Shown here piece after piece: positions 3,269 through 45,955 of a DNA stretch of 50,547 bases. The DNA comes from a virus. A model generated the notes under the pieces. That model was not told the origin of the DNA. It saw only the letters and a list, made by a program, of their open reading frames with translations, and ran no database searches. The first letter of the stretch is position 1. Each line of letters opens with the position of its first letter. The stretch covers positions 1 through 50,547 of IMG/VR virus record IMGVR_UViG_3300030329_004012; one strand, given 5' to 3'. A program made the position numbers and the translations under genes.

Positions 3269-3291
3269 AAGTTGATAAAAAGTAGGTATAA

Positions 3292-19300: not shown

Positions 19301-20739
19301 GGAATAGAAACTTTACAGATACTACTAATATGATATTTAGGTCTATGCCTGGTAGATTTAGTCAATTTAATTGGGCAGAAGACTTTTTAGCTCTTCCATC
19401 AAAACCTATAGCTTTAGCTAGTTTTGCTGGTAAATTATGGGCATTTGGTAGAGAAAAGATATATAGAATAAATCCTGAACAATTTTATATTGAATCAATT
19501 CAAGAAGGTGTAGGAATTCTTAATCAAAACTCATTAGTAGTTACTGATTTTGGTATGTTCTTTTGTGATAAAAATAGTATGTATCAACATGATGGAACAA
19601 AACCTGTAGATATAGGTGGAACAGTTTTATTTAATAATGATAATCCAGAAACAACAGTTGGTTATAGAGCTGCCTTAGACAAGTGTATATTAGAAGGTAT
19701 TGACCCAATAGTTGCATATGACGGAAGAAATAAGTGTGTTTATTTTATGGTCCAAGGTGTTAAAGAAGTTAATTCTAATGATTATACAAAAACAAAAACT
19801 GCGATGTATACTTATTATCCTAAAACAGGTAGGTTTGATTATTTACTTCTAGATTACCCAGCTAAATTTGCTGTATTAGGAAGAGATGGAGATACTTTAT
19901 TATCTACACAATACCAACTTTTTTCTTTAAGAAGAAGTAACTTAAATTCTAAAGCTTGGGATTGGACTAGTAAAGAATTTGATATGGGAACTTTAAACGT
20001 AGATAAAGTTTGGAAATCTGTAAAATTAACTGGTGCTCCTTCTTTTTCAAATTGGTCAACTACACATTTTTCCAGCATTACTGATGATGTCCAAGTTTTT
20101 ATAGATGGACATCAAAAAAAGCTTACTATTGATAATAAAAATTATAGTATATCAAAACCGATAGCAAGTTCAAATGTTAAAATGGCTAAAGGGGCAGGAC
20201 GTGATGAAGGAACAGTTTATGGTATTAAATATCCCTTGCCATCTCCTGGTTCAATAGGTAATATTAACCAAACTTTACCAGATGCATTTACTTTATATAC
20301 TTCAACTATGCCAGAGTTTAATACAGGTACAGATACATTTCAAAAAGATTACGTACAAAAAGGTGATATGCTACCAAATAACCCTTTAAAGTATATTTCT
20401 AAAGGTCAATATTTATATTTTGAAGTTTACAATGAAGTTTCTAATCAATCATTTCATGAAATAGTTAAGGTTAAAGAAATTAAACTTACATGGGATTTTT
20501 CTACAGATGAAATTAGTAAAGTAGATATTGCTTGTGATAGAGGACAATTAGGAACAACTGCTGTAGATTTTACTCAATTTATTTCAACTGATTGGGTTCA
20601 TGCTCCAATAAGATATGTTGGACCTTCTCTTAAATTACCTGGAAGAACTAAAGGTAAAAAATTACAAGTTGTATTAAAAAATCAAAGAGGTACTGTAGAT
20701 TCAGTATCATTTATTTATCGCCTAAAAACACTTAAATAA
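13330..20739 (+). CDS. Giant tail protein (2469 aa), propeller-like C-terminus
   Basis: One unbroken frame. The N-terminus (GIIGSPSGVDVPKEAAVYSS) and the C-terminal 650 residues resemble podoviral tail-tube/stabilisation proteins. Signs are ARAELLGLSPRVTDVVVWRR, then GKLWAFGREKIYRINPEQFY and DFGMFFCDKNSMYQHDG, repeating strand-turn blades consistent with a beta-propeller. Between them, about residues 150-1800 are a very long Asp/Asn/Gly/Tyr/Trp/His-rich insertion with no recognisable domain. It includes TWSGNG- and DSVDTPG-type turns suggestive of beta-helix or immunoglobulin-like modules. No membrane segments are present. It lies between adaptor genes and fibre. A main tail-tube or hub with a surface-exposed insertion is inferred. 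Confidence 0.6.
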   Translation: MAKEFEEIKAFHTGIIGSPSGVDVPKEAAVYSSNVDATLQQGSLIGVQDDLILSDGGWKNKRTTSSYIAFNYSEADWTSVVYPQLTNKYFIIPTYKSHWLVYFSEDSTKTSYNLIDSDAYDYWNEESPDLREYRISSYATLAFFWVSLKAFVENSMKPREDTFEYKEINTNYMTLTWEGLDQNEMDWTNGIFAVRFTNNFYGPIPNINVYHDSNISSTYIKHYPANATHGVGQIGNFFQLNWIKVLEDNEGHTLAFINNAGQFGAYENFYTETSSSTTVASGVENAGRNKITAEQRNNDLYIGVGGLSTTPSRWYGKINRRQLERTLSGSYLDELRLQSPPKLDRFYEFDKVVVPTLNRDMNSDNSMIAGAASLYCGGTVGTDFGGADVEADASINDYRSLNGWVMKCLANAGHAFQDDYTAATDDGHFDWTLSCKRGMIFRVSIGNEANAQAFSVIQDSTLGAPAAGEAIFELRKIKEIGFGDTSAVTASAEGVELHDGDLFQVVAAPKTGTDSLAQSNGNVNTYPRLLYVGSLSGTSTHHDSTTADFPAPAWSYGMFNDSSMLYRIALSECNDDNISSAETQYTFSKEGATGNTTSSTEFTKRITSYDLAHYISGVSDFKIGTIAECMSTDGLGGIGGRTSTQNLLTVDTVTRCNSVGTTGGTDDTIDKYVKFHTTANHSYIVGDWVRITNSDHHNGTHQIVWADADEFVILNNVYTDSDNSCNVIGISRNYYAGHGKLWVTSSNPEHYDKLWLVDVVNWHGQDNDSKRITAQEFKMDFDRIHSSLTSSDSGEGLLEIPWWDRTENGGQPWTDPYWTPNPKGFPSSICETHSHRPHLDDGAYNASGLGRWRVWVMYSQDSEATFNNWDLFLFNFRPTDTGNDDNKLWMYDKTPPFQECGKILDTAYAPKDKFMITRGIPHGGGNNEKYLGNGTDEAINSGSGITYTDSARQFWNDTTDLFSDSNMTNIPGDFVLNAGEIYDTKTGGTNTTPSNAKLRRNGGHLIIRDILHTYWDQGTTLGRPISSGVQGHVDHTREHGHIDAVQGGLCYKDPSGMWHMIELPFYRGDSSGFNNATYGDDTHRAQYSLRMGYNIGWYRDNITEDNARSHAPTRHCLIPYYSQWWSVKALEVEDIPGDNDEDVAHIVTFSSEVSGKFVQDGGYIVANYNAFNKVLHWQGNPGESASGATLGIQNYDKKQVLCTMHDSPVAFTSSDAYGNIGFETDSVSDLDSVTDWSGNGNTFTDSTCDYDNDPTVTCNANSQIMPDMSVSGTGIPTGAYVDSVDTPGAVTSFELRNLNGTALSTTGGAVTDGTLTFSKGIPEVQGRPTKAANDAGVIDVEAGRDTQNGVRATLGYSKYNQYRWGHDFNGTHDLHVDDYTTTNPWNTWDSYKGQDGYGHYNMITTTWCSNAYSSSSGFENEDKDYLDGNNKWTYGQLRCRHFNVDHGGPNDYSKGAGTFSGSRGEGTGYFTWYTNMDNTQTSIASLYATEFGDRPVGDNAGGNYEIDDPEIIQWGRYYWNGMDRGYYASDIAFQKNISGNVVMNSVVDGGEDEVPGGKQWQNRRIVWCWSVMPFITGGTKNSSASPYVFLKAPRVTQRPINAYFTYTESGTDERTYDIKVHALDNYATYYDLNSLNTYSSCTMIYATAPDLSGTKRTMILVVIPVHGNGDNEDSSNFKIRLAYKWNQGIRPLRLGSTEQARRMFYNEKLTGKNLCHGLLHKGNTYDVYCPIMWGSSKDNDNQMVLHYRRSQWPTMSTSAAGPTDLHYLFDKFYDYEDVANCFGGFDNADGALSTRFPLEQLGSYQGTGTGTSSTVSGDNDDDGCHLKTSIQMGFSAATGGAASGTTDFHTGDVVEYKLSYLYDGYQDGPLSDWVYQYDNGTALTGDLDHLICTLELARAELLGLSPRVTDVVVWRRNNETDEFRYVHQVNLEELGNGPETTNETYVATFKDRVAMQSYQATTGLSETLKSSEMNFATSAQLADFLFVADVWNRNFTDTTNMIFRSMPGRFSQFNWAEDFLALPSKPIALASFAGKLWAFGREKIYRINPEQFYIESIQEGVGILNQNSLVVTDFGMFFCDKNSMYQHDGTKPVDIGGTVLFNNDNPETTVGYRAALDKCILEGIDPIVAYDGRNKCVYFMVQGVKEVNSNDYTKTKTAMYTYYPKTGRFDYLLLDYPAKFAVLGRDGDTLLSTQYQLFSLRRSNLNSKAWDWTSKEFDMGTLNVDKVWKSVKLTGAPSFSNWSTTHFSSITDDVQVFIDGHQKKLTIDNKNYSISKPIASSNVKMAKGAGRDEGTVYGIKYPLPSPGSIGNINQTLPDAFTLYTSTMPEFNTGTDTFQKDYVQKGDMLPNNPLKYISKGQYLYFEVYNEVSNQSFHEIVKVKEIKLTWDFSTDEISKVDIACDRGQLGTTAVDFTQFISTDWVHAPIRYVGPSLKLPGRTKGKKLQVVLKNQRGTVDSVSFIYRLKTLK

Positions 20740-22061
20740 TGAAAAATAAAATTATACCTCCATATTTAAGAGATTTAGATTTATCTTTGTTAAATGATAT
20801 AATTATAGACATTTATAAACATCTTAGCAGAATAGCAGATAGTGCTGATGAAATTACTTTTAGACCTAAACAAGATGGAACTAGAGAACTTATTTTAAGA
20901 GAAGGGCGAGGAGAGCTTGTTGATGTTTCTAATACAATTAGATTTAGTTCTAATTCTAGCTCTATAAAAACAATAGTACAAGGTAAATTAAAAGAAGATT
21001 TAGAATTAGATAAAGTAACTAATGAGTCTAAAGCTACTATGTTTACTAATCCTTCGTTTACTGGAGATGATAAATTAAATACTTCTACTTCTAATACATT
21101 TAAATTTAATCCTGATGATGAAGATAATAACACACTAGTTGATGTGGTTACAGCTTTAAAATCTCCTATAATAAGATTTATGTCTGGAGCAACTCCTCGT
21201 TGGAAAATTGGATTTGATACAGATGATACTATTAATAAATTTAAAATAGATAATGGGACAGGAAGTACACTAGCTGACCCTAGTGAATTTGAATTAGATA
21301 ATAGTGGTAATTTAGAGTTAGCTGGAACAATAAAAGCAAGTATTTCTAGCGTAGGTAGTGATACAGATAAATTTTTAGTTTCTGATAGTGGAACTGTTAA
21401 ATATAGAACAGGTGCTGAAGTATTAAGTGATATAGGAGCAGGTGCTGTAGCAGGTAGTTCTAGTATAGTTACTACAGGAGCATTAGATGCTGGTAGTATT
21501 ACTAGTGGGTTTGGAGCAATAGATAATGGAAGCTCAAATATAACTACCACAGGAACAATTAGTGGAGGAACTATAACTGGTTCAGTAATTTGGCAATCAT
21601 TTCCATTTTATGCTTTAACTCTTACACATAGTAGGTATTATTATATAGATGTAGATGATACTGCAAATTCTCTTAGAAGATGGGATGATTATGATGTTGA
21701 CCCAACAGGATTTAATTATAGAGATGTAGCAGGACAATTTGTTGTTCCAGAAAACTGTACATTAAAAGGTATGCACGGAGTTATCTCAAATCAGTCTTCA
21801 ACAAATAATCCTACTATAGGGATTTACCATGGAACAGTTACAGAAGGAACAGGTGATACTACACTTGCCTTAGCTGCTGGAGCTGGCGGAGCTGCTAAAA
21901 CAGTAACAATAAGCACTCTAAGAGTTCCTTATAAATTTAATGATACATATAGTGTTAATTTAGATGCAGGAGATATAATAGTTCCAACTATTTATCATGC
22001 AGATAGTGGTGGGACTAGAACATTCCAAGGAAGTTTAACATTGAAATTTATAACAAGATAA
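20739..22061 (+). CDS. Tail fibre/spike protein
   Basis: A 440-residue protein coupled to the giant tail gene (TAATG). The N-terminus (residues 1-60) is a short helical attachment part. Residues 100-290 contain repeated beta-helical stretches such as FLVSDSGTVKYRTGAEVLSD and TTTGTISGGTITGS, typical of trimeric phage fibres. Residues 300-440 form a compact beta-rich C-terminal domain (YYYIDVDDTANSLRRWDDYD onward), probably the receptor-binding or trimerisation tip. No chaperone-cleavage motif is recognised. Confidence 0.65.
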   Translation: MKNKIIPPYLRDLDLSLLNDIIIDIYKHLSRIADSADEITFRPKQDGTRELILREGRGELVDVSNTIRFSSNSSSIKTIVQGKLKEDLELDKVTNESKATMFTNPSFTGDDKLNTSTSNTFKFNPDDEDNNTLVDVVTALKSPIIRFMSGATPRWKIGFDTDDTINKFKIDNGTGSTLADPSEFELDNSGNLELAGTIKASISSVGSDTDKFLVSDSGTVKYRTGAEVLSDIGAGAVAGSSSIVTTGALDAGSITSGFGAIDNGSSNITTTGTISGGTITGSVIWQSFPFYALTLTHSRYYYIDVDDTANSLRRWDDYDVDPTGFNYRDVAGQFVVPENCTLKGMHGVISNQSSTNNPTIGIYHGTVTEGTGDTTLALAAGAGGAAKTVTISTLRVPYKFNDTYSVNLDAGDIIVPTIYHADSGGTRTFQGSLTLKFITR

Positions 22062-22064
22062 TTC

Positions 22065-22093
22065 TTGGAAAATTATTAAAAATTACTTATATT
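22065..22093 (+). promoter_or_regulatory. Sigma70-like promoter before internal-protein genes
   Basis: TTGGAA at 22065-22070, a 17-base spacer and TATATT at 22088-22093, placed 33 bases before ATG 22126. Same -35, spacing and -10 as the promoter at 48768. It should start a transcript of the internal virion protein block. Confidence 0.6.
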
Positions 22094-22125
22094 AAAATGA
22101 TGAATTATATTCAAAAAGGAACTGT

Positions 22126-22875
22126 ATGCAATTAAAAGATTATGGAAGATTTGGTGATACTGAGATTCGTAATATTGATGGTGAACCAAATCACGTAAAC
22201 GAAGTTGAAGCTCATTGGATAGATAACTATGGTTTATTAGGACAATTAGCTACTAAAGCATCTGGTTCTGGAACTACTAATCCTCATACTGGATATACAG
22301 AAAGATTCCCTTGGATACAAGCTGCTATAGCAGTTGGTTCCTATCTTTTAAATGATTCTGCTAGTGATAAAGCTGCAGATACTATGGCTGGAGTTTCAGG
22401 TAGAGTTGAAGAACATTTGGAACCATGGAAAAGTTCTATAAGTGAATACCAAAATATGTCTAAAGAATATATAGACCCTTTTAGTGTTGCAAATCAATCC
22501 CAGCGTCAAGATATAAGAAATCAAGCTATGGATTTTGTAGGTATGCAAGATGTAATGAATAGGCGTAATTTGGCTAGTGGTGGATTAGGTGGATTTAGTG
22601 GTGTTGCAAATCAGAATTTAGCCTCTGCAACACAAGCTGCTTCTGTTCAATCAGAGCAAGCATTTCAAGACCAATTTTTGCAAAATAAAAAATTCGGAAC
22701 ATCTTTAATGGATAGTTACATCCAAAACTTAAGAGCTTACGGAGAAACAATGGCTCAAGGACAAATTCAAAATGATGCTATGTTAGCACAACAACAGCAA
22801 CAATCTGGTTCAGGAATGGCTATGGGCCTTTTAAATGCTGGATTGAATATTTTTGGTGGTGGAGGCGCAGCATAA
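22126..22875 (+). CDS. Internal virion/ejection protein, 249 aa
   Basis: First gene of the block after the 22065 promoter. Residues 60-85 contain a hydrophobic Ala-rich segment (WIQAAIAVGSYLLN). Residues 95-220 are helical and Gln/Asn/Ala-rich (SEYQNMSKEYIDPF, ASATQAASVQSEQAFQDQFL). The C-terminus is Gly-rich and hydrophobic (GMAMGLLNAGLNIFGGGGAA). This resembles small ejection proteins of podoviruses that enter the host envelope with the DNA. Assignment is by style and by the four genes that follow. Confidence 0.5.
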   Translation: MQLKDYGRFGDTEIRNIDGEPNHVNEVEAHWIDNYGLLGQLATKASGSGTTNPHTGYTERFPWIQAAIAVGSYLLNDSASDKAADTMAGVSGRVEEHLEPWKSSISEYQNMSKEYIDPFSVANQSQRQDIRNQAMDFVGMQDVMNRRNLASGGLGGFSGVANQNLASATQAASVQSEQAFQDQFLQNKKFGTSLMDSYIQNLRAYGETMAQGQIQNDAMLAQQQQQSGSGMAMGLLNAGLNIFGGGGAA

Positions 22876-22878
22876 AAA

Positions 22879-23343
22879 ATGGCATATAATGATAATAATT
22901 TTTCAATAGCAAATAGTCAAAATGTTCCAGCAGGAACATTCGGAATATCACAAACTGATAATCCATTCTCTGTAGGAACTAACGCAGGAATGAACAATAC
23001 ACCAGCTAACAACCCATTTTCTATAGGAAATTCTCCTAATTTAATTTCAAGAGGTGTTGATGAATTTAGTCAGAGAATAATGCCTACATCTAATTTTTCT
23101 ATGCCTGGCATTAATCCATCTACTGATGATGGTACTAATTGGGATAAAGTAATGACAGGTGTTAGTGAAGCTTTAAGTAACTATCGTTTTCCATCTCCTT
23201 CTGCAGCTCAAAGACAAGTTCAGAAGGCAAATCCTATAAATACTCGTACAGATTTTTTATCTCCTCCACAAAGAGGTGGTCTTTTACAAGAATTGATGAT
23301 GAAGAATTATATGCAAAATAAAAATATGAGAGGATTAGGTTAA
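22879..23343 (+). CDS. Hypothetical virion protein, 154 aa
   Basis: Asn/Ser/Pro-rich, largely disordered, with a repeated NPFSxGxN-like element (NPFSVGTNAG and NPFSIGNSPN). No domain is recognised. It is coupled to its neighbours (three bases after the previous stop, one-base overlap with the next start), so it probably belongs to the same internal virion complex. Confidence 0.55.
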   Translation: MAYNDNNFSIANSQNVPAGTFGISQTDNPFSVGTNAGMNNTPANNPFSIGNSPNLISRGVDEFSQRIMPTSNFSMPGINPSTDDGTNWDKVMTGVSEALSNYRFPSPSAAQRQVQKANPINTRTDFLSPPQRGGLLQELMMKNYMQNKNMRGLG

Positions 23344-24500
23344 TGGCGTTAGATTGGACACCTTTACAAACTCCTGCTCTTCAAAGAGCTCAGAATACAT
23401 ATGATATGAATGCAATGATGACTGAAATGGCAGCATTAGGATTGCATGAAATTACTCGTAGGCCAGATATATCAACAAAAGATGCTGATGAATTTATTAG
23501 AGGTTATGGTAGAAGTTGGTATAAAGACGAAGGTAAAGGTACTTATGATACTTATGAAGATTTTGTAGCTGATAATCCTCTTTTACAACTAGCTGAAACA
23601 GGAACTCAAATGAGGTATGATTCTAGTGGTAAACTAGAATATAAAGAAGGTGATAAATGGAGTTCAGATTTATCTGCTATAACTGGAGGACAATCAGACC
23701 AGGCATATGGAGGCGGAACAGGAGAAGAAATATTTTCACCTTTTGGGATAAAAACTGATACAGGAGTTTCAGGAACAGGAGATGCTTCAATTTTTGAGAC
23801 AGATTTAGATAACGCTTGGAGACTTGGTATAAAAGGTCCAGAAGGGTTGCAATATAAAGCTCCAAAAAGTATGTTAGGTGCTTTATTTCATAGAGATACT
23901 TATAGACCTACAGGTGGAACTTATCAAACAGATAAAGGTACTGTTTCAAGAAAACTTCCAGGACAAAATATATTTCAACAAGTAGGAAAAGGAGTATCAA
24001 ATGTTGCAAGTAATGTTTATCAAAAAGGGGCTGGATTAGTAACTGGAGTAGGCGATGAACTAAAAGGGGCAGGCTCTCAATTAAAAGGAGCTATTGGAGA
24101 TTTACTAAGTAATCGAACTAAACAAGATGAGGTTGCTAATTATAGTTTTAGCGATGATGGTACAGTTATAGCTACGAATAAACCTGATACATACGTGTTA
24201 CAACCAGGAGATACTCTAGATGCAATCGGTAGAAAATGGGGTGTTCATTGGCCAAAGATTCTTGAATGGAATAATTTAACTGAAGAAGATGCATATAAAC
24301 TTCCTGTAGGATATAAACTAAGACTAACTGCTCCTTCTTCAAAAGAAGGCAGTGACCAATCAGGAACTTTAGCTAGTGATGATTTAGCAAATGAAACTGA
24401 CCCTACATTAAGTGGAAATTATACTCCTAAATGGTACGAAAGTGCTTACGGTTTAGCAACAGAAAATAAATGGCCAGGTCCATATGGAGATAGAAAATAA
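23343..24500 (+). CDS. LysM-containing virion protein, 385 aa
   Basis: Residues about 280-330 form a LysM domain: YVLQPGDTLDAIGRKWGVHW, then KILEWNNLTEEDAYKLPVGY and KLRL. This is the classic 'PGDTL..Ia...g.....i...N' fold that binds peptidoglycan N-acetylglucosamine. The preceding part contains a Gly/Ser-rich stretch (residues 110-150) and a region rich in Gly-Val-Lys (GKGVSNVASNVYQKGAGLVT) that may be membrane-active. Context among ejection proteins suggests it crosses or grips the cell wall during DNA entry. Confidence 0.75.
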   Translation: MALDWTPLQTPALQRAQNTYDMNAMMTEMAALGLHEITRRPDISTKDADEFIRGYGRSWYKDEGKGTYDTYEDFVADNPLLQLAETGTQMRYDSSGKLEYKEGDKWSSDLSAITGGQSDQAYGGGTGEEIFSPFGIKTDTGVSGTGDASIFETDLDNAWRLGIKGPEGLQYKAPKSMLGALFHRDTYRPTGGTYQTDKGTVSRKLPGQNIFQQVGKGVSNVASNVYQKGAGLVTGVGDELKGAGSQLKGAIGDLLSNRTKQDEVANYSFSDDGTVIATNKPDTYVLQPGDTLDAIGRKWGVHWPKILEWNNLTEEDAYKLPVGYKLRLTAPSSKEGSDQSGTLASDDLANETDPTLSGNYTPKWYESAYGLATENKWPGPYGDRK

Positions 24501-25609
24501 TGTCATACTTTCAACAAATAAATCAATTAAAAGAGCAACAAGCTCAAAGATATATGGAAAATTACTGGGGTCAACAGCAAGCTTTATACGGTGGTAACAG
24601 TGGAAAATTTATAGAAAACGATGCAGGTAAAGTTGTTTATACTGGAAGAGGCAATGAACTTCCTTCATTAAACGAATTATGGTCAAAATTTCAAAGGGGA
24701 GCTCAATCGAGAGGATTAAAAGCTAATTATTTAACTTTTAAAAATAACTATGATATGATGAAAAAGGTTCAAGATAATCAGTATTTAGGTCACTTACAAA
24801 ATGCTGAGCTAAGAGGTATCCCTTTAGATAAAATTCATGATGCATTACAAGAAAATCCTAAACTAAGGAATAAACTTATAACTGCTGCTGGCGATGGTTC
24901 TCCTGAAGGTAATCAATTTATATCTCATTATAATCCTGAAAGAGAAACTAGTATAAGTGATATGATAGGAGAAAAAAGTTGGTTAGCAGCTCCTTTATTG
25001 TTTGGTGGTAAAGCCGCTTATGACTTTGCTATGTCTCCAACAAAAGAGGCTAAAGATATTTATGAAGCTTCTAAATCTAAATCACAGAAACTTCTTGATG
25101 ATGCAAAGAAAAAATTAGCTGATTCTGAAAAAAAACAAAAAAGAGCTAGAACGGACAAATCAAAAAAGAAACACACTAAAGATATAGCAACTCATAAGAA
25201 AGCTGTCACAAAATACACAAATCAAATATCTAAAATAAAAGAACCTCCTACTAGATGGAGTGCTAGAAAATGGTTTAAACCAGGTGGTGGTAAAATGGGT
25301 GGCTATGGTGATATAGCAGCTTATGTTGCTCCTGGAATTGTTGAAACAGCCTTAAAGAAGGTAGGTGTTAAAGATAAAGAAGCAGAGATAGCTGGTGATG
25401 TTACTGGAGTTGGTACTGGAGGCTACTTACTTACAAGAGGTATTCTTGGTCTTATTAGAAGCAAAGGTCTAAGTCCAGCTGCTTGGATGCAAACTGCAGG
25501 TGGAGCACAGCAATTATACGGAGCAGGTAAGGAGTACGCGACAGGATTATTCTCAGGAGATGAACCAGATGCTGAAGTTCCAGAATCCCAAACTCCAACA
25601 GTTTATTAA
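24500..25609 (+). CDS. Internal virion protein with coiled coil, 369 aa
   Basis: The N-terminal 170 residues are mixed helical. Residues 185-250 form a long Lys-rich coiled coil (SKSQKLLDDAKKKLADSEKK). Residues 265-330 are Gly/Ala-rich with hydrophobic stretches (GYGDIAAYVAPGIVETALKK; GVGTGGYLLTRGILGLIR) that could insert in membranes. It directly precedes the giant virion protein. An ejection/trans-envelope channel role is inferred; no family is recognised. Confidence 0.5.
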   Translation: MSYFQQINQLKEQQAQRYMENYWGQQQALYGGNSGKFIENDAGKVVYTGRGNELPSLNELWSKFQRGAQSRGLKANYLTFKNNYDMMKKVQDNQYLGHLQNAELRGIPLDKIHDALQENPKLRNKLITAAGDGSPEGNQFISHYNPERETSISDMIGEKSWLAAPLLFGGKAAYDFAMSPTKEAKDIYEASKSKSQKLLDDAKKKLADSEKKQKRARTDKSKKKHTKDIATHKKAVTKYTNQISKIKEPPTRWSARKWFKPGGGKMGGYGDIAAYVAPGIVETALKKVGVKDKEAEIAGDVTGVGTGGYLLTRGILGLIRSKGLSPAAWMQTAGGAQQLYGAGKEYATGLFSGDEPDAEVPESQTPTVY

Positions 25610-25618
25610 GAGGTTCTT

Positions 25619-28600
25619 ATGCCTATAAATCTTGGGTATCAATATCCAAACTTTTCTTCACAACCTAATACGTATACTCCTATAGGTGATAATGCTGCAA
25701 CTGAAGAAGGATTTCAACCTAATTTAAGTGAAAAAAATCTAAAGGATTTAATTAGTTTATACAAAAAAAATCCTACATTAATACCCCCACAACAAGTAGA
25801 CAATATGCAGAAGCATGCTGTATTATATAATGTCCCTTTTCATAAGGGAGATTTTAGTATAATGGGAGCTTTGTCTGAATTTGGTAAAGGTTTCTTATCT
25901 GGTTTTACAACTATGGATATAGGAGACCCTCCTGATAATGAATATGAAGCAATCATTAGGAATATAGGGCATTTAGCAGGGTTTGCTCCAGGTATAGCTG
26001 CTGGACCTTTAAAAGCGTTAAGAGTTCCTGCTTTAGCTCAAGCTGCTATGGCTTTAAATAATAGGTCAGTTCCTATGATGGGTGCTAATTGGTTAACTAA
26101 AAAAGCTAAAAAGATTGTTAAACCTGCTTTAGAAACAGCTATAAAAGGTAAGGGAGATGCTACAAAAACAATCACCAAATTCTTATTAGGTCCTAAAGCA
26201 AAGCATATGGCTGAAGGTGCATTTCATCTTGGAGCTGCTAGTGCTATTAGTTCTTGGACACAAGGAGTTGATGCTATGATGCATTCGGCTTTTGGTGGAG
26301 CTGTTGCTGGTGGTGCATTCAGAGCTATGGGTAATTTTGTAAACACAGGAAGTAAAGATGCTGATAAAATAGTAAGAGGTTTAGCAGGTTCTTTATTTAT
26401 GGGTTTACCTGCTACTGCAAGAGGAGCAACTACTGCTGAGCAAGTATATGAATATTTATTAGGTGCTTATTTTGGTGGTAAAGAAATGCCTTGGTATAAA
26501 GCTAAGGGAGCTAAAACTATGGCATCCTTAGAAAAACAAGCTCAGAAGAATCCAGAACTAGCTATTACTAGAGACCCACGTCTTTTAAAGGAATGGAAAA
26601 GTTTAGAGCCTGAAGTTCAAAAAGAAGTTAAAGAACTAGCAGAAAAAGCATATGGAAATGCTGATGAAAGAAGTGCTGCTGCTCATTTATTAATGAAAGA
26701 AATGGGTATATTAGATAAGAATACTAAACTACCTACTCCACAAGGATTTACCGAATTAAAGAAAGTTGTTGGCGGTCAAGAACTTATTAGATTAACCGAC
26801 CCTAACCAAGTTCTTCATCATGGTATATCTGGAGCATCAAGAGGTTCTGATGCTTATTGGGCTATAGTTGGAAAAAATTATCAAGTTCCATTTGTTCACT
26901 ACTCTTTTAAAGGGCAAAAAACTAGTAGAGGCGCTGGAAAAATAAGAGAATTAAATCAAGCTGAACTTGCAGAAGCTAATATAAAAATTAAAAAGGCAGA
27001 TGAAAGTTTAAATAGATTAAAAGGGAAACAAGCTAAAGGGTTTACACAAAAACTTTTACAAAGAAATTGGTGGCAAGTAAAGACATCTAGAGGAATTTAT
27101 GCTTTAGGTAAAATTATTAAAGGAGGAACTGAACTACAAGGCGGTAGTGGTTGGGCTACTCAAATGGCTATCGATGCAAGAAAAAAACATGTTTATGCTT
27201 GGGACACAGCTTCAAAGAAATGGCATAGATATGATTATAAACTTAAAAAGTTTAGAATGCTTGATAGGACACCTAAACTTGTAAAGCGTTTTGCTGGTAT
27301 AGGTACAAGAAAATTAAGTAACGAAGGTAGAAAAGCAATAGAAGATATATATGCGGTTACTTTTGGAAAGAAAAAACCTTTAGTTACTAGAAAAGCTGAA
27401 GCAATTTCTGAAAAAGATATATCAGTTATACCTGCAGAACGTTTAAAAAGACTAAACGAATTATCAGAACAAGAAGTTATTTTAGATAAAGAGTTAGATA
27501 TTCATATTCAAGATTCTAAGAATCCAGATTTATCTAATTCTCAAAGAATTTCTGCTAAAAAAGAAGCGCAAAAAGTTGCAGCACAACTTAATGAAATTAG
27601 AAAAGAAATGAAAGATGAAGCCTATTCAACAGTAAAGGAAGAAGAATTACAATCTTCTGAAACTCAAGATGGCAATGATATTGGAATGATATCTGGTAGG
27701 GAATTAGAAAAGAAATCTGTTTATTTTATAGATAAATACGCAAAAAAACTTTGGGACGATGCAGGGTACACACCTGTAATGAAACTCACTAAAAAGGCCC
27801 AATTTGCGAGTATTTTACAAGATATAGTAAATAAACCTAAATATTCTAAAAAAGGTTCAAGGGTTAAAGTTGAAGAAATAATTAATGAATTTGAGTCAAC
27901 AATAAAAAAACAAGGCGAAGATATATCTATAAGAGCTGAAGGAAAAAGAAATTTAAGACAATGGTTAACTTTAAAAAGCTTTGGTAAACAAGTTAGATAT
28001 TTAAGAGCAGATGATAGAGGTATATATATTGCCCCCTTAGATAGAGTTATTACAAGGGCTGGTAATAAAAAATTAGTTAATGAACCTACTAAACGATTAG
28101 AGGAAGTATTTTTAGAATTAGGAGGCAAGGAAACAGATAAAGAACCTCCTATTGTTATTTTTGATACTATAACCTCTGGTAAGGATGGCGCTTATAAAGA
28201 CTTAAGCCTATCTAGATATAGACAAATGGAAGAAAGAGATGACTTTACTGGTACTCCTTATTATTCTTATATAAAGAAAGTTTTTAAGAAGATGTTAGGT
28301 AAAGGTTACTATCCTTTTGGAGGTAGAGGAGATGCTGATGCTATAACATTTGTTAAAATGAATCCTATGCTAACTAATAAATCTGAAATGAGATTATTTA
28401 AAAGAGCTGTTGAAAAATCTTTAGGACAAAAAGGGATAAAACAAATAAAAGATGGAATGGCTTTATTTAAAAAGACATATGGATTAAGTAATAAAGTTCA
28501 GGATATGTATTATTCTAACCTTCTTTATGATATTCAAATGAATGGATTTAGACCTGACTTACAAGTTGGTACTAGATTAGAAAAAGCAAAGATATGGAAT

Positions 28601-31600
28601 GATACAGTTTCTAAATTTTTTAGAGACAATAAAACGTTTATTCCTAATGCAACTGCTTTAAACAAAAGAAATCAAATATGGTTTACTCCTGGATGGAAAG
28701 CAGACCGTGAATTTGTTAAAGACTTTATGAAAACTAGGTCAGGTAAAAAAGGTTTTATAAATGATTTGATAACAAAATTAGACGAATTAAATATACCTGT
28801 TATTTATAAGACTAAAATTACTTCAGCCCTTCAGCCTGATGTATATACCGCAGCAAGAACAAACCGTAAAACTCGTGAAATATATATAGATAAAGATTTA
28901 ATGAAAAAGAAATTCAAGGAAAAAGCTTGGACAAAACCTAGGATGAAAGGTGTTGACCCTTTACCTGAAGATGCTTTTAAAACTTATAAGCAATGGGAAA
29001 ACTTTGTAATCGCTCATGAAAGAGCTCATTTTACTAAAGAAAATCAAGCTTTACCTAAAGGTCCTGAAAGAGAAAATCATGCTAATAAAGTTGCTTTAGA
29101 TGTTGTTCAAGGTAAACAAGATTCATTTAAATATATTATAGTTAAAGATGTTGATAAAGAATTAGGGAGAAGAATAAAGCTAACTGATAAAAATAGTGAC
29201 GACCCTACAAGTGTAGATGGTATGATTATAGTTAGAGATGATATTGTTGATGCTATAAATGCAGATGCTGGACAACCACCTTCTGGGCAAAATAAATCAT
29301 TTATTGTTAGTCCTGATAGTAATAATGGAGCATTGCTTGGTAAATATATGATGCATTCTGCTGGCCGAGAAGCAACTAGAGCTATGCAAAAGAAGGGATT
29401 ACATTTTATAATGCAAGAATCAGCAGTTAAACAAGCTGGTGATAGAAAAATAGGTTCATATAGTTATGATGGAAAGTCTTTAAAATATAGCTCTCCTGAG
29501 TATTCCCTTCCTATAGAGCATATAAAATATAACTACTCAGTTAAACAAGATGCTCATATGTTAGACCCTAAACGTATTCCTAAGCAGCTATTTATGGCTA
29601 TGGGTAAGAATGCTTTCTCAGAGTTCTCTAATGATTTAATAAATGATTTCTTTACTGAAACAGTTTATAAAAGATTTAGGGGAGAAGATGCTTATAATAA
29701 TATGTTAGACAACTATATAAATAATCCTAGGAAAGAAAAGTTAAATGAATTACTAGACAATATTGACAAAGTAGGAATAGATAATTTGTTACATGCTATT
29801 AAACATGGTCATAATGATTTTACTGATTTGGCTTATGCTAAGCTAATGAAATTTAATAGAGAAGCTTTACGTGAAATGGTAGCTTCTGGAGAAATGTCTG
29901 CTGAAAGAATGCAAGAAGTAGAAAATAATTTACTTGAATTTAATACTGCAACAGATAGATTAATTAAAGAATCTGATATATGGTCTACAAAAGAGAAGGC
30001 TGCAGGTCGTGATGGAGATATTACTCCTATATTTTTACATAAATATGTCAGACCTTTTAGAGTTCAGGTTATTAGAAATTATATAATGGAAAATTTATCA
30101 AAACCTAAGATAAAAAATTCAGCTGTAGCTCGTATGAGAGGTTATGATAAGTTTTTTCAATCTAAAAAAGAATTTAAAGAACTTGAAACAAGAGATGATA
30201 TATTCTTTTTAGATGAGTCTTATAGAGATTTAAAACTAGATACTCATTTAGGAAAGGAATTTAATACTTTAGGTAAATTATGGGAAGCATATGTTAGTAA
30301 GGGTAAAAAATGGGTTCATAGAGCTGATGCTAAAGAAATATTAAGAGCTGCTACTGTTCGTGTTCCTATGGATTCTACTAGTGGTGCTCAAGTAATGCAT
30401 TTTGGAGGATTTACTGGAAGAAAAGGTCATGGTATAATGATGCATTCAAGAGCTATGAAAGCTGAAGGTGGTGCTGACCTTGATGGAGATGAAGCGTTTA
30501 TCTTCTTTGGTGGTAGAAAAGGCGGAAAAGGTGATGGATTTAAAAAGTCTTGGAAAGATGCATTTAGAGCTAATAAAGAAGAGTTTTATGAAGGTGGAGA
30601 ATTAGAAACTATCTCACGATTTTCTCCTTCATTATTAAAAGCAAATCCAGATAAAGTGTATTTGTTTGGAGATAATTTAGCAAAAGTTGGAAGAGGACCT
30701 GGGGCTGGTCAAGCTATTATAAGAGATGAGCCTAATGCTTATGGTATTCCGACTAAAAAAAGTCCACGAGTATTTATGACTGACAAAGAATATGATGCTA
30801 ATATAAAAGCTATAGATAAAGCTTTTAATTCTGTGCCTAAGGATAAAACTGTAGTTCTTCCAAAAGATGGGCTTGGTACTGGTAGAGCTCAATTAAAAAC
30901 TAAAGCGCCTAAAACTTGGGCTTATTTACAAAAGAAACTGAATGAACTAAAATCTAGCCGAGGTCAAGCTGAATATACTTACGATAATAAAAATGAAAAA
31001 GTAAGAAAAGAATTAACGCTTCAAGATAGTATATCAGAAACTGGTATAGACCCTAAAGTAAGAGATAGTGCTGCTTGGAAATACATGCCTGGTTGGAGAG
31101 TTATGATTTCAGAAAGAGCTAGAGATGGAAGGAATCAATTGGGTTCAGCTTCTAATAATGTTCAATTATTAAAAGCATTTCATAATTCTTTATTAGAAAA
31201 AGGGCAAGATAGATACTTTATAGGTAAAGGGAAAAATAAAAAAGAGATTATTGTAACACCTAAAAAGGATATAACCAAAGCAAGAAAGCTAGCCTCTTCT
31301 ATGATAGCTTTTGCATCTGACCCTTTAGATGAAGCAGGATTAAGAAACTATAAAAATTGGTATGTTAAATTATATGATTCCTATTTTAACGTAACTAAAG
31401 ATGGTAAAAAAGTTAGATTAACTGAAAAAGATTTTAATTCTTTATCTTATAATGGTATGTATAATCAGTTAAGAAAAATGAACCAAGGTATGTTCAGTAG
31501 AAATTGGTCTGCTGATAGAAATTTCAATATGCATGAAATTAATATGATGACAGCAGGTGTAACAGATAAAACTACATTTGGTAATGAGTCTTTTAGAAAT

Positions 31601-34600
31601 ACAATGTTACCTAAATTAGCTAGTATCGCTAATAAGATAGACTATTCTGATTCGGTTTATCGTAGAGCTCACCTTACATCATTAGAAAATATGTATAAAG
31701 AACATACTGAATTAATTAAAAAATATCCTGATTTGGTTAAATTATTAGGAAGAAGTACTATAGATGTTCCATTAAATAACTACGTAAAAAATGTTAAAGA
31801 ATTTTATTTATACAATGACAATGCTATTGATATTGTTTCAAAGAATTATACAACTTTTGTTAAAGCATTAAAGGGGACTCATTTTTCTCATAAGCTTAAA
31901 GCAGGTGAACTTAAAGATAATACTTGGAAGAATATTCAAAAAAGAAAATTTGTTCTAGAGAAATTAAGAGACCTTTCAGAAGACTTTTTAGTAAATGATA
32001 TAACAGATATGGTTACAGTTAAACTATTAGCTAAAGATGCTGGTAAAGTTTCTAAAAATGAATTTAAAGAGATACATAGATTCACAGATAAATTAAAGAA
32101 ACAAAGTTATTTAATGGCTAAAAATAGACGTAATTTTATGGACTCCTTTAATCGATTAGATAAAATGGACCCTGAGCATAGAGAATTTTTTAGAGAAATG
32201 TATAATGCTCATGAGAAACTTTATGGGAAAGAAGAAACAAAGAAAGTTTTTCCTGGGGGAAGAAAACAATTTGAAACTCCTGTTGAAGATATATCTGCAT
32301 TAAAAGACCAGCTTGAAATAGATGCTGAACTTAAAACCTTTAAACAAAAGTTAAGTCCTGAAGGGAAAAGACTTACAGATATACTTATGTTAGGTTCTTT
32401 AAGAAGAGGAAAGCTTAGTGAAATAAATAAGCTAGATAAAGAATGGGGTAAGAAACTTAGAAAAGACCCTTTATATGAAGATTTATTGCATAGTTTAAAA
32501 ATGAAAGGTTCAAAGACTGGTGTTTCTAAACTAGGACTATCTTCTCAGGAAGTTGATGGTAAAGTTTTAAGAGAATTTTTTGGAGAGTTTTCTAAAGTTA
32601 TGCGTAAATCTTGGGATAAACCAACTGAACTTGATGCTGAAGTAAAGGATGCGAATAAACGTAAAGAAGGAACTGTTAATGAAGAGTTTATTGATAAGAA
32701 AGTAGAAGGAACTGAAGTTGATGAAATATATTCAGGTTTTGAAGGTTTAGAAAAAGCTGATTTATCTGTATTAACTCCTGAAAAAAGGCAAATAATTACA
32801 GAACTTGCAGAGAATCTAAAGTTTTATAATAATAAAATGGGGAAAGACTTAAATGCTTTAACTAGAGGAATGTTCGAAAAAGATTTAAATGCTATGAACT
32901 TAGCTGATTTTGCTGATATGAATGCTTACTTTAAAGAAGTTAGAGGTGGAACTATATGGCAAAAGTTATTTAATGAGAAAACTCCTGATATGAGAAAAAG
33001 ATATTGGTGGCAATTTCCAGCTACTGTTGGAAGAGAAATGATGAAGTATGAGATAATGTTCTTAAAGAGTAAAGGTATATTTAAAACACAAAAAGGATTA
33101 GTGCCTGAAAAAGGTGGTGTAATAATGAAGCCTACCAATGTAATATCAGCAGCTCAAAAAATTCTTGGAAGAATGTCAGAACAAGGTGTTCAAGAAGGTG
33201 AAAGACTTGTTGGTGACTTAAGAAAAAAACTTGGATTTTTAGAAGGACTATCAGATGGTGAAGCATTAAGAAGACTTGCTGTAGCTAAAGCTGAAACAGC
33301 TGAAATAGAAAGAATATTCAATAGTGAACATATACCAAATGAACTAAAAGGTATTCAAGCTGATGAGTATAGATTAAGATACAAGGAAGAATTAAAAAAA
33401 TCTGATTATATAAATAAAAAAGATAAGAAGTATATCGTAACTAATACTAAAGGTGAAAGAGAAACTTTAAAGGGAAGTGATATAGTTAAAAGAGTTGAAG
33501 AAGTCTATGATGCTCATTTTAAGGAAATGTTTAAAACAATTGAAGGTGAATCAGGTGTTCTTGATAAATATACCTTAGGTTATTATGATAAAAATATAAA
33601 AGAAAAGCCTATAATTGACCATAAAGCTTTTATAAAGGATGTGTTAAAAGACTTTAATGCAGGTAAAGGTATCTCTCTTAAATATGGTCTAACTCCATTA
33701 AGACATATTTCTAGGTCTATGATGATTGAACAAGCTAAAATCTTAGGCAATCAAAAGCTTTTAACTAAGCTATTAAAATTTGAAATACCTACTGTTCGTA
33801 GAATTAGAGAAGGTTATTATCCTCATATGTTCTTTAGCAAATCTAAAGCTATGGATGCTTTGAAAAGGGCTCATGACTATATAAAGAATTTACCTGAAAA
33901 TGTTATGTCAAAAGAAGATAAGATTGTTCAAATACAAAAGCTACTTACTAAACACAAGACTCTTACTGGTGATTGGATGGAAGGGATAGAAAATTGGGAT
34001 GCTTTTGATAAAGCTGTCCAAAATATAAAAGAGAAAAAAAGTACTGACCCTATTAGTGCATTTGATAATGCTAATCAAATGACAGGTTCTATGCATCATA
34101 GAATGTCTCATGTTGGAGGATGGTCTATTGATGCGGCTGCTGCTGAATCATATACTCGTAATCAAATAAACACTTACTATAAACAATTCTCTCAAATTAT
34201 GTCTCGTGATTTATTAAATAAATTTACTGAAAAGGCTATGTCTAAGCCTCATGAATGGCATAAAATTAAAGATTATGGCGATAATACATCTTTATTAACC
34301 AGATGGCAAAATTGGTTAAAACTTTATATATCTGAATCTATGGGAAGTCCTAGTATTATACCTGACTTTATATTAAATGACCCTAAAATGAAAGTAAAAG
34401 GTACTCCTTATGCTTGGTGGGCTGATAATAAAGTTAAAGAAAAAGCTAATAAAATAGCTAAAAAGCTAGGATTAAGAGGTAAAAATTTACTTACTGTTAA
34501 AGAAGACCTTGAAAGAATTGACTATAATGATATACGACATTGGTCTAATCTTGAAGCTAAATTCGAATTAATGTCTTTACTTGCTCATCCAAAGTCTGCT

Positions 34601-35704
34601 GTAGCTAATATATTTGGTGGTTCTTTACATACTGTACAATCAACGGGTTTAGAATATTTAAGAAAAGCAAGAAGTATAAGTGATTTACAAAAAATAAATC
34701 CTAATTGGGAATCTTTAACTGATGTTGATAAGTTTGTTGTAAAGCATGGTGTATTACCAGAATTCATTATTGCTGAACTAGGTTTGTCTAGAGAAGCTCA
34801 AGCTACTAATGTAAAAGCATTTATTAAAGATTTATCTGCTAAAATAACTAAAACTGGTGAAGTTGATAAGGAAACTTTAAGAGATATAAATCGTAAACAT
34901 AAAGTTAGTGAAAGTATAATGAATAAAGCAGCTAAATTTATGTCTGTTCCTGAAAGAGCTCTTCGTAGAGATGCGTTTATGGCTCATTATATTAAAGCTT
35001 GGGAAAGATTTGGTGGAGCTATAAAAAATCCAGACCATCCATTCTTAATTGAAATGGCTAAGAAAGGTGTTAAAGCTACACAGTTCTTATATAGTGCTCC
35101 ATATAGACCAGCTTTTGCCAGAACAGCTCTTGGTAAGGTGATGACTCGTTTCCAATTGTGGTCTTGGAATGCTGTAAGGTTTAGAAATGATGTTATAAGA
35201 GAAGCTAAAGTAAGGGGATATAGAAGAGGTACTGCTGAATTTGAGAGGTTTAAGAGAACAATGCAAACAGACTTGTTTGTTTTAGCTCTTGCTAATGCAT
35301 TTGCTTATTCTTTATTTGATAGTGCTTTACCAGCTCCTTACAACTGGTTAAAGGATACTTCTGAATGGATATTCGGTGATGAAAAAGAGAGAAACAAAGC
35401 CTTTTTTGGAACTTGGCCTAGTGCTATAGCTCCCTTACAAATTGTTACTCCTCCTATAATGAGACTTCCTGTTGCGGGATTAAGAGCATTTTTAGATAAT
35501 GACTATGAAAAATTAGCTCATTATCATGTGTATACTATGTTACCATTTGGAAGAATGGTAAGAGATGTATCTCCACTTGCTAAAGGTAATTTGATAGAAA
35601 ACCCTAGTAGAATACTAGAGAAATCAATGGGATTTCCGTTAGGGGATTTACAAGGTATGGCAAAGAAAATAAAAGAGGGTGATGCCTATCATCCTAGATA
35701 TTAA
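25619..35704 (+). CDS. Giant virion protein (3361 aa), RNA-polymerase-like barrels
   Basis: A fifth of the genome. Residues 80-270 hold Gly/Ala-rich, potentially membrane-active stretches (GFAPGIAAGPLKALRVPALA). HERAH at 1133-1137 is a zincin motif. D1200-G...K1242...S-A-V-K1271 resembles the first (beta-like) double-psi barrel of RNA polymerase. R1581-V-P...A-D1620-L-D1622-G-D1624 closely parallels the 'R-P...NADFDGD' metal loop of the second (beta'-like) barrel. Residues about 1680-1790 (VYLFGDNL, GPGAGQAIIRDEPNAYGIPT, GLGTGRAQL) are a separate phage domain. The C-terminal 300 residues are hydrophobic-basic. It follows the ejection genes, so packaging and injection with the DNA, as for crAss-like virion polymerases, is inferred. 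A giant 'polyvalent' protein is the alternative. Confidence 0.6.
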   Translation: MPINLGYQYPNFSSQPNTYTPIGDNAATEEGFQPNLSEKNLKDLISLYKKNPTLIPPQQVDNMQKHAVLYNVPFHKGDFSIMGALSEFGKGFLSGFTTMDIGDPPDNEYEAIIRNIGHLAGFAPGIAAGPLKALRVPALAQAAMALNNRSVPMMGANWLTKKAKKIVKPALETAIKGKGDATKTITKFLLGPKAKHMAEGAFHLGAASAISSWTQGVDAMMHSAFGGAVAGGAFRAMGNFVNTGSKDADKIVRGLAGSLFMGLPATARGATTAEQVYEYLLGAYFGGKEMPWYKAKGAKTMASLEKQAQKNPELAITRDPRLLKEWKSLEPEVQKEVKELAEKAYGNADERSAAAHLLMKEMGILDKNTKLPTPQGFTELKKVVGGQELIRLTDPNQVLHHGISGASRGSDAYWAIVGKNYQVPFVHYSFKGQKTSRGAGKIRELNQAELAEANIKIKKADESLNRLKGKQAKGFTQKLLQRNWWQVKTSRGIYALGKIIKGGTELQGGSGWATQMAIDARKKHVYAWDTASKKWHRYDYKLKKFRMLDRTPKLVKRFAGIGTRKLSNEGRKAIEDIYAVTFGKKKPLVTRKAEAISEKDISVIPAERLKRLNELSEQEVILDKELDIHIQDSKNPDLSNSQRISAKKEAQKVAAQLNEIRKEMKDEAYSTVKEEELQSSETQDGNDIGMISGRELEKKSVYFIDKYAKKLWDDAGYTPVMKLTKKAQFASILQDIVNKPKYSKKGSRVKVEEIINEFESTIKKQGEDISIRAEGKRNLRQWLTLKSFGKQVRYLRADDRGIYIAPLDRVITRAGNKKLVNEPTKRLEEVFLELGGKETDKEPPIVIFDTITSGKDGAYKDLSLSRYRQMEERDDFTGTPYYSYIKKVFKKMLGKGYYPFGGRGDADAITFVKMNPMLTNKSEMRLFKRAVEKSLGQKGIKQIKDGMALFKKTYGLSNKVQDMYYSNLLYDIQMNGFRPDLQVGTRLEKAKIWNDTVSKFFRDNKTFIPNATALNKRNQIWFTPGWKADREFVKDFMKTRSGKKGFINDLITKLDELNIPVIYKTKITSALQPDVYTAARTNRKTREIYIDKDLMKKKFKEKAWTKPRMKGVDPLPEDAFKTYKQWENFVIAHERAHFTKENQALPKGPERENHANKVALDVVQGKQDSFKYIIVKDVDKELGRRIKLTDKNSDDPTSVDGMIIVRDDIVDAINADAGQPPSGQNKSFIVSPDSNNGALLGKYMMHSAGREATRAMQKKGLHFIMQESAVKQAGDRKIGSYSYDGKSLKYSSPEYSLPIEHIKYNYSVKQDAHMLDPKRIPKQLFMAMGKNAFSEFSNDLINDFFTETVYKRFRGEDAYNNMLDNYINNPRKEKLNELLDNIDKVGIDNLLHAIKHGHNDFTDLAYAKLMKFNREALREMVASGEMSAERMQEVENNLLEFNTATDRLIKESDIWSTKEKAAGRDGDITPIFLHKYVRPFRVQVIRNYIMENLSKPKIKNSAVARMRGYDKFFQSKKEFKELETRDDIFFLDESYRDLKLDTHLGKEFNTLGKLWEAYVSKGKKWVHRADAKEILRAATVRVPMDSTSGAQVMHFGGFTGRKGHGIMMHSRAMKAEGGADLDGDEAFIFFGGRKGGKGDGFKKSWKDAFRANKEEFYEGGELETISRFSPSLLKANPDKVYLFGDNLAKVGRGPGAGQAIIRDEPNAYGIPTKKSPRVFMTDKEYDANIKAIDKAFNSVPKDKTVVLPKDGLGTGRAQLKTKAPKTWAYLQKKLNELKSSRGQAEYTYDNKNEKVRKELTLQDSISETGIDPKVRDSAAWKYMPGWRVMISERARDGRNQLGSASNNVQLLKAFHNSLLEKGQDRYFIGKGKNKKEIIVTPKKDITKARKLASSMIAFASDPLDEAGLRNYKNWYVKLYDSYFNVTKDGKKVRLTEKDFNSLSYNGMYNQLRKMNQGMFSRNWSADRNFNMHEINMMTAGVTDKTTFGNESFRNTMLPKLASIANKIDYSDSVYRRAHLTSLENMYKEHTELIKKYPDLVKLLGRSTIDVPLNNYVKNVKEFYLYNDNAIDIVSKNYTTFVKALKGTHFSHKLKAGELKDNTWKNIQKRKFVLEKLRDLSEDFLVNDITDMVTVKLLAKDAGKVSKNEFKEIHRFTDKLKKQSYLMAKNRRNFMDSFNRLDKMDPEHREFFREMYNAHEKLYGKEETKKVFPGGRKQFETPVEDISALKDQLEIDAELKTFKQKLSPEGKRLTDILMLGSLRRGKLSEINKLDKEWGKKLRKDPLYEDLLHSLKMKGSKTGVSKLGLSSQEVDGKVLREFFGEFSKVMRKSWDKPTELDAEVKDANKRKEGTVNEEFIDKKVEGTEVDEIYSGFEGLEKADLSVLTPEKRQIITELAENLKFYNNKMGKDLNALTRGMFEKDLNAMNLADFADMNAYFKEVRGGTIWQKLFNEKTPDMRKRYWWQFPATVGREMMKYEIMFLKSKGIFKTQKGLVPEKGGVIMKPTNVISAAQKILGRMSEQGVQEGERLVGDLRKKLGFLEGLSDGEALRRLAVAKAETAEIERIFNSEHIPNELKGIQADEYRLRYKEELKKSDYINKKDKKYIVTNTKGERETLKGSDIVKRVEEVYDAHFKEMFKTIEGESGVLDKYTLGYYDKNIKEKPIIDHKAFIKDVLKDFNAGKGISLKYGLTPLRHISRSMMIEQAKILGNQKLLTKLLKFEIPTVRRIREGYYPHMFFSKSKAMDALKRAHDYIKNLPENVMSKEDKIVQIQKLLTKHKTLTGDWMEGIENWDAFDKAVQNIKEKKSTDPISAFDNANQMTGSMHHRMSHVGGWSIDAAAAESYTRNQINTYYKQFSQIMSRDLLNKFTEKAMSKPHEWHKIKDYGDNTSLLTRWQNWLKLYISESMGSPSIIPDFILNDPKMKVKGTPYAWWADNKVKEKANKIAKKLGLRGKNLLTVKEDLERIDYNDIRHWSNLEAKFELMSLLAHPKSAVANIFGGSLHTVQSTGLEYLRKARSISDLQKINPNWESLTDVDKFVVKHGVLPEFIIAELGLSREAQATNVKAFIKDLSAKITKTGEVDKETLRDINRKHKVSESIMNKAAKFMSVPERALRRDAFMAHYIKAWERFGGAIKNPDHPFLIEMAKKGVKATQFLYSAPYRPAFARTALGKVMTRFQLWSWNAVRFRNDVIREAKVRGYRRGTAEFERFKRTMQTDLFVLALANAFAYSLFDSALPAPYNWLKDTSEWIFGDEKERNKAFFGTWPSAIAPLQIVTPPIMRLPVAGLRAFLDNDYEKLAHYHVYTMLPFGRMVRDVSPLAKGNLIENPSRILEKSMGFPLGDLQGMAKKIKEGDAYHPRY

Positions 35705-44812: not shown

Positions 44813-44833
44813 TGTTACCTCGTTTCTTTGTTT

Positions 44834-44928
44834 ATTAAAAGAGAGCCTCACATATTCCTTTGCCTAACCCAGGCTTAGCGAAGGATTTTTACAAGGACTT
44901 ATAGGACCAGTTATTGGCTCTCTTTTAA
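44834..44928 (-). promoter_or_regulatory. Structured RNA element between Ubl and E2 genes
   Basis: A perfect 13-base inverted repeat, ttaaaagagagcc (44834-44846) and ggctctcttttaa (44916-44928), encloses 69 bases. Inside lies a second stem: tcctttg-c-ctaa pairs with ttag-cgaagga around loop cccaggc (about 44856-44885). It starts 21 bases after the Ubl stop and ends just before the E2 ribosome site. It could adjust the Ubl:E2 expression ratio by processing or attenuation. There is no T-run typical of a terminator on this strand. Confidence 0.65.
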
Positions 44929-45186: not shown

Positions 45187-45955
45187 TTAAGTCTCCTTTA
45201 TTGATGTTATTTATTAAGTAGACCTGACAAGCAACACCAATATTTAACTTGTCAGGTCCTGAGGTAAACTAGGTTGTTCACCTATTAATTTTTTTGATAA
45301 CTCCTGCAACTTCCAGCCAGGCAATGAGTAATTAGCTAGGAAATCATTCGTTTATAGCTCTAAAACGAACTCATCATATTATTATAAAAAAGAGTTTTTA
45401 TGCTGTTATCAATTTTTTGGGAACTTTAATGGTGCTCATTTATCCATATTTCGGTAAATAGCTAATTCACGGAGCTTTTTCATGTTAATTCATGTCGTTC
45501 CCTTGGTACCAAATATTAAAAGAAAGATTACACTCATCCTTTTTTTCAAAGATGACCCTTTTGTACTTTAGTCCATACTTATCTGGTTGCGCATTAGAGT
45601 ACCATATTGATAGTATACCACCGTACTTACCCTACAATCCAGCCTATGTCGTCACATAGCGCCTCATCTTTCTTTAATTATCGTCAAAACTCTCTTATTT
45701 AATTTTTGGCATACATTGCATAATAGACCACTAGTGTCTTAATCTTTCTGCCTTGAGTATGCCAGCCAAGTTTATAGAGGGTCTATAGCATATTACATTA
45801 ATAACCTCTAATTTTTGAGGCTACACTTACAACTGAATGAACCATTACATGTGCGGTATGTAGGAAGTGTGTAAGCATAGCCTCTGTGAGTCTATAAATA
45901 GGACATAAACGCTATGTAATTAGAACTAAAGGATTAGACCGAAAAAGAATAAAAG
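45187..45955 (-). other. 769-base region without an intact gene, rich in hairpins
   Basis: Contains no frame with both start and good ribosome site longer than about 20 codons. Inverted repeats: 45221-45231/45248-45258 (11 perfect pairs), 45644-45649/45654-45659, 45708-45714/45757-45763, 45773-45778/45782-45787, and 45817-45831/45870-45884 (7 pairs, CA/CA loop, 6 pairs). One start-less open run of 48 codons (45485-45631, minus) could be a gene fragment. Candidate structured RNA or long leader of the Ubl cassette. Confidence 0.5.
45221..45258 (-). promoter_or_regulatory. 11-base perfect inverted repeat upstream of the Ubl gene
   Basis: gacctgacaag (45221-45231) and cttgtcaggtc (45248-45258), 16-base loop, 35 bases before the Ubl start on the minus strand. 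No T-run follows on either strand, so an operator or RNA element is more likely than a terminator. Confidence 0.5.

Follow-up and report, generated by a model that had tools for sequence, protein, structure and literature searches.

A giant late-cluster protein of an uncultured podophage family with a predicted single-chain two-barrel RNA polymerase core

A 3361-aa protein encoded by an uncultured virus is likely a giant virion polypeptide that contains a single-chain, two-barrel, DNA-dependent RNA polymerase, packaged and ejected by the particle and used for early transcription. Fold matches, a register shared with a profile of crAss-like polymerases and a set of conserved residues together argue for a single-chain two-barrel RNA polymerase. 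That the protein carries the two-barrel polymerase fold is, on the predicted model, close to certain; its catalytic activity, judged from the residues that are kept, is very likely; and its delivery by the virion, for which architecture and gene position speak, is reasonably likely.

The DNA analysed here (the window) is the IMG/VR virus contig IMGVR_UViG_3300030329_004012 at its full length of 50,547 bases. Because the same sequence of ~100 bases stands at both contig ends (1-98 and 50450-50547), the genome of about 50.4 kb is probably complete, being either circularly permuted or terminally redundant. Its structural genes encode TerL (phrog_38), a portal matching P22_portal, a capsid protein matching SU10_MCP and an SU10-type adaptor, which makes a short-tailed virion likely, and the source is likely an uncultured short-tailed virus of bacteria (podophage). 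A plasmid search with the window TerL gave no match. Elsewhere in the window, a protein with a Laminin_G_3 (concanavalin-like) domain (49437-50204, plus strand) is possibly a receptor-binding or tail-fibre part. Additionally, the minus-strand interval 41692-44851 holds an E1/ThiF-like gene (Pfam ThiF 1e-14; PADLOC E1-E2 and BilD models 1e-5 to 1e-7), which is adjoined by a weakly JAB-like protein and a 522-aa protein; by sequence, this gene group is a possible phage ubiquitin-like module. The features of the polymerase gene and its surroundings are collected in Table 1.

Table 1. Coordinates of the polymerase gene, its predicted domains and related features in the window
Feature	Residues	Position	Strand	Basis or remark
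Upstream late cluster		13330..25609	+	2469-aa giant, then 440, 249, 154, 385 and 369 aa
Giant two-barrel RNA polymerase gene (predicted)		25619..35704	+	open frame, 3361 aa; IMG/VR homologues about 2900-3500 aa
N-terminal domain, no known family	1-400	25619..26818	+	conserved G/F-rich blocks, 42 homologues
DprA-like (SLOG) module	404-582	26828..27364	+	tblastn, hhalign, BLAST
Insert with HERAH zincin-like motif	1046-1165	28754..29113	+	few relatives
First barrel DPBB-B, beta-like	about 1168-1304	29120..29530	+	AF2 strands, invariant residues, hhalign
Second barrel DPBB-A, beta'-like	about 1576-1631	30344..30511	+	AF2 strands, hhalign
Catalytic D1620-L-D1622-G-D1624, putative Mg2+ ligands	1620-1624	30476..30490	+	D-x-D-x-D kept in motif-independent relatives
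DUF7831 domain, after DPBB-A	1671-1772	30629..30934	+	Pfam PF25176, E 8.4e-29
Putative bridge helix	1824-1861	31088..31201	+	38-residue helix, AF2 model
C-terminal domain, helical	2400-3361	32816..35701	+	41% mean column identity
Conserved structured non-coding leader, ahead of leftward cluster		45187..45412	-	also L230-L251

An earlier note on this DNA had read the protein as bearing the motifs of both polymerase barrels, and these lie exactly at the residues it gave: D1200, G1201, K1242 and S1268-A-V-K1271 for the first barrel, and R1581-V-P, G-x-Q, H and A-D1620-L-D1622-G-D1624 for the second. A further invariant lysine, K1226, had been missed. In shuffled copies of the 3361-aa protein, a bare D-x-DGD arises in 5.3% of cases, and the ordered pattern R.P...G.Q...[AGS]D.DGD in 0 of 20,000. 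An initial search returned a single close relative, L001 (3123 aa), and a family search with a 54-aa motif region, whose pattern contains ADLDGDE, yielded 55 contigs, that of L001 among them. In forty-seven sequences, the window among them, the gene is complete or nearly so and encodes about 2900-3500 aa; 42 of these are non-redundant. Seven residues of the first barrel (D1200, G1201, D1216, K1226, K1242, K1271 and Q1272) are invariant in 42 of these 42 full-length copies, as are R1581, P1583, D1585, S1588, G1589, D1620, D1622 and D1624 in the second. The invariance of D1620, D1622 and D1624 in this set is partly by construction, since the search pattern contained ADLDGDE, whereas the lysines, R1581 and P1583 are invariant independently of the pattern. 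For this reason a second search took the C-terminal domain alone as query, leaving the motif unused, and the best 80 of 197 matching stretches were kept. Among these 80, D-x-D-x-D is kept in all 17 additional relatives that reach the site (some near-identical, hence fewer than 17 independent events), and the x residues vary (DLDGD, DLDAD, DKDGD and DADID). Three fixed aspartates with varying x residues form the pattern expected of a metal-binding triad. Allowing for near-identical sequences, we put the number of distinct relatives with the site at about 60, from both searches. A scan of genome contigs gave one short, spurious-looking match, which lies in an archaeal MAG and has no giant ORF around it.

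Much of the 3361-aa protein is non-polymerase, as would suit a structural or ejection protein that descended from a two-barrel polymerase and lost catalysis. However, the catalytic residues are all invariant while the neighbouring x positions vary, which is the mark of selection for catalysis, and we consider such a loss very improbable.

The AlphaFold2 (AF2) model of residues 1000-2199, computed with the alignment of 42 sequences, has a mean pLDDT of 77.9; in the barrel regions, most 10-residue blocks exceed 80 and commonly 90. The model adopts a two-barrel fold, and a fold without two barrels, the outcome that had been named beforehand as speaking against a polymerase, was not seen. In a Foldseek search of the PDB, phi14:2 gp66 (6VR4) ranks first (E 7e-8); QDE-1 and plant RDR2 come next, ahead of cellular RNA polymerases. 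VIA-align gives a Z of 17.6 for QDE-1 (472 residues, 4.4 Å) and 17.1 for RDR2, then 12.9 for P23-45 gp64 and its P74-26 homologue, 12.3 for phi14:2 gp66 (581 residues, 4.2 Å) and 11.3 for P23-45 gp96, with the large subunits of multi-subunit polymerases below them, around Z 9. The top of both the Foldseek and the VIA-align listings holds only two-barrel polymerases. Against BFVD, the AF2 model finds two unnamed viral proteins (E 2e-53 and 1e-40, 23-24% identity), and crAss-like phages supply many of the other top matches.

The highest Z values belong to the RNA-copying enzymes QDE-1 and plant RDR2, which would fit a two-barrel enzyme that makes a different product or copies a different template, either a PolD-like DNA polymerase or an RNA-dependent RNA polymerase. 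The first Foldseek match is, however, a phage DNA-dependent enzyme of the same kind, the QDE-1 Z rows are uninformative on template, and the origin of the eukaryotic RdRPs is thought to lie in single-chain RNAPs of phages (PMC7281927). A different product or template is thus very improbable in our judgement, and a DNA-dependent RNA polymerase remains the preferred reading.

Sequence profiles were compared by hhalign with a crAss profile of 82 sequences (80 fetched crAss-like polymerases plus the seeds phi14:2 gp66 and crAss001 gp50). The family profile scores 55.2 (P 1.9e-5) on R-x-P...DxDxD of DPBB-A, against at most 26.7 for 30 column-shuffled profiles and 22.2 for the reversed profile. The first barrel scores 26.9 with crAss DPBB-B, against a maximum of 18.7 over 40 shuffles; specifically, the alignment puts ESAVK1271 on the lysine of the crAss motif [S/D][A/G][V/I]K-V-G, which is present in 80 of the 82 crAss polymerases. 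With the single gp66 and gp64 sequences the motif is aligned at a weak score, and with the single gp96 sequence it is missed; a clear score came with the 82-sequence profile alone. Taken together, the predicted fold and the sequence profile support the polymerase reading of the motifs, and the proposed match to one-chain, crAss-like enzymes holds both in the Foldseek top rank and in the motifs of both barrels, which are in register with those of crAss polymerases. Pfam RdRP (PF05183, QDE-1 type) matches one of 39 family members (E 4e-4), and no such match appears in a whole-contig search of the 47 family contigs including the window. Searches of PDB sequences by phmmer and profile hmmsearch returned nothing relevant, tblastn of the polymerase core against INPHARED phages returned no credible relative, and neither Pfam nor PHROG annotates the 3361-aa protein as a polymerase. 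A BLAST link to the huge phage LR745206 was rejected, as the matches there, to the DprA-like and DUF7831 modules, lie in small proteins apart from one another, with the polymerase not matched.

Within the polymerase core, DPBB-B contains D1200-G, K1226, K1242 and K1271, and a connector separates it from DPBB-A. The long AF2 helix that follows DPBB-A stands at the place of a bridge helix, and this region carries a family motif, GRNxLGxAV, comparable with GK.GVGI.AN of the crAss polymerases. Columns 1051-1150 of the family alignment are 92-93% gaps, with the HERAH insert found by BLAST in 5 relatives, and BLAST of the family set finds the DUF7831 insert in only 2. Because both are missing from most relatives, the enzyme appears to tolerate recent insertions near its barrels. 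In the C-terminal part, the final ~460 residues are strongly conserved; the AF2 model of the C-terminal domain has a mean pLDDT of 65 (low confidence) and no fold match in the PDB.

By tblastn, the DprA-like module matches phage DprA-like proteins and the N4-like vRNAP of Klebsiella phage Pylas (hhalign with the latter, 2e-28), and BLAST detects it in a further 45 members of the family set. In both the window protein and the Pylas vRNAP it lies ahead of the polymerase domains. This SLOG module is common to giant polymerase proteins of two unrelated kinds, the window polymerase and the Pylas vRNAP, and to jumbo-phage proteins annotated as DprA-like. Such a common module, together with the similar size and gene position, would be in line with a virion polymerase of the T7/N4 type found in Schitoviridae. 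Yet none of the Pfam N4-type vRNAP domains PF21894, PF21867 and PF21769 occurs in the window protein, though the same library detects all three in Pylas, used as positive control, and the predicted fold is two-barrel, which makes a T7/N4-type enzyme extremely improbable. A scan of 20 family records for PF00940 (T7-type polymerase) gave no match, but the control genomes likewise gave none, so this negative does not establish absence.

The predicted two-barrel polymerase gene is the last of the rightward late/structural cluster, after the 2469-aa giant and a transglycosylase-like gene. The late-cluster proteins between 13330 and 25609 are candidate cargo and ejection proteins; the 385-aa one has a PHROGs endolysin/transglycosylase match, and the gene order is kept in relatives. 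The 2469-aa protein (13330-20739, plus strand) has no Pfam or PHROG match, and its conservation in relatives is mainly C-terminal (about 1850-2235). Convergent with the polymerase gene runs a leftward cluster that encodes an exonuclease, an HNH nuclease, a primase-helicase and an AAA protein, an arrangement also kept in relatives.

P23-45 gp64, which is not a virion protein, matches the AF2 model no less well than the virion enzymes, and the protein could likewise be an intracellular two-barrel RNA polymerase for middle/late transcription. However, gp64 has only 616 aa, compared with the ~3000-aa protein here, and the place as last gene of the late cluster, the adjoining candidate ejection genes and the large conserved non-polymerase flanks all speak against a non-virion enzyme, which we regard as unlikely though deserving some weight. 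By its gene position and N4-like layout, injection of the polymerase is plausible.

For a packaged and ejected enzyme, we propose that the polymerase core would occupy about residues 1165-2000, in the middle of a giant virion polypeptide (~3000 aa). DPBB-B would supply the conserved lysines K1242 and K1271, perhaps with K1226, and DPBB-A the Mg2+-binding D1620, D1622 and D1624, with the bridge helix after it. The N-terminal domain, the C-terminal domain and the DprA-like module may serve packaging, ejection, or membrane or DNA handling, as proposed for the N- and C-terminal domains of N4 vRNAP. The polymerase would be packed in the capsid and then ejected with the DNA, and would transcribe the leftward early/replication genes ahead of phage protein synthesis, a promoter choice that we infer.

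The non-coding leader that precedes the leftward cluster is 86% identical at DNA level to the L001 contig and has a fold z of -3.4, and its hairpins are conserved, with compensatory changes between the window and L001. Its 26-nt core, ATTGCCTGGCTGGAAGTTGCAGGAGT (21 nt of it served as the search pattern), does not vary across 22 aligned stretches, namely the window and 21 from other phage contigs, one of which (104 kb) gives two. The leader has no match in Rfam. It may be a candidate early promoter for the polymerase or, equally, an RNA element. Sigma-70-like promoters in the right arm of the genome are at chance level only, and the search for repeated promoter motifs turned up no obvious one.

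We found no description of this lineage, although the supplement of PMC10770324, with its 23 family alignments, may list it. Such a populous family of podophages, so far unannotated, adds a new branch to the single-chain two-barrel enzymes and reveals which of their residues can vary; how these enzymes are related matters for the question of where cellular RNA polymerase and the eukaryotic RNAi polymerases came from. Single-chain two-barrel polymerases are known from many phages (PMC7281927), and virion forms have been characterised in crAss-like phages (phi14:2 gp66) and in P23-45 (gp96) (PMC10770324). Two well-studied and otherwise unrelated virus groups thus pack such an enzyme and inject it with their DNA, and probably the window phage does likewise.

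Like phi14:2 gp66, the predicted window polymerase is a single chain in which barrel B precedes barrel A, with the catalytic motifs in register, and it is a giant protein encoded beside other giant proteins. Unlike gp66, with which it has no BLAST-level similarity, it adds the DprA-like module and a C-terminal part of ~1400 aa; homology to the gp66 family is detectable at profile level, by the DPBB-A alignment described above. The setting may also differ from that of gp66 in crAss-like phages, in that the window phage has a P22-like portal, an SU10-like capsid protein and a ~50-kb genome. P23-45 gp96 (8H2N) is similarly a two-barrel polymerase within a giant late-cluster protein. In its case the polymerase lacks a clamp and stands at the N-terminus of a tape measure protein, in a phage with a long tail (PMC10770324), whereas the window polymerase occupies the middle of its protein and the phage is probably short-tailed. 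QDE-1 and RDR2 reach the highest structural Z, and one family member matches their Pfam RdRP model, but they are cellular, act in RNA interference on mainly RNA templates and have no giant flanking domains.

In its layout, the window protein resembles N4 vRNAP, a protein of about 3500 aa that is encoded last in the late cluster, has an NTD-RNAP-CTD layout and is ejected (PMC12633501), and it shares the DprA-like module with the N4-type vRNAP of Pylas. The N4 core is T7-like, whereas the window core is two-barrel. The pair therefore offers a natural comparison, in which the same delivery problem has apparently been solved with an unrelated catalytic core. As a tentative possibility, which we think rather doubtful as a whole, delivery may be modular: an N4-like chassis of NTD, DprA-like module and CTD would have a two-barrel core in place of the T7-like one, giving a third injected single-chain two-barrel lineage beside those of crAss-like phages and P23-45, and this enzyme would read the structured leader ahead of the early genes.
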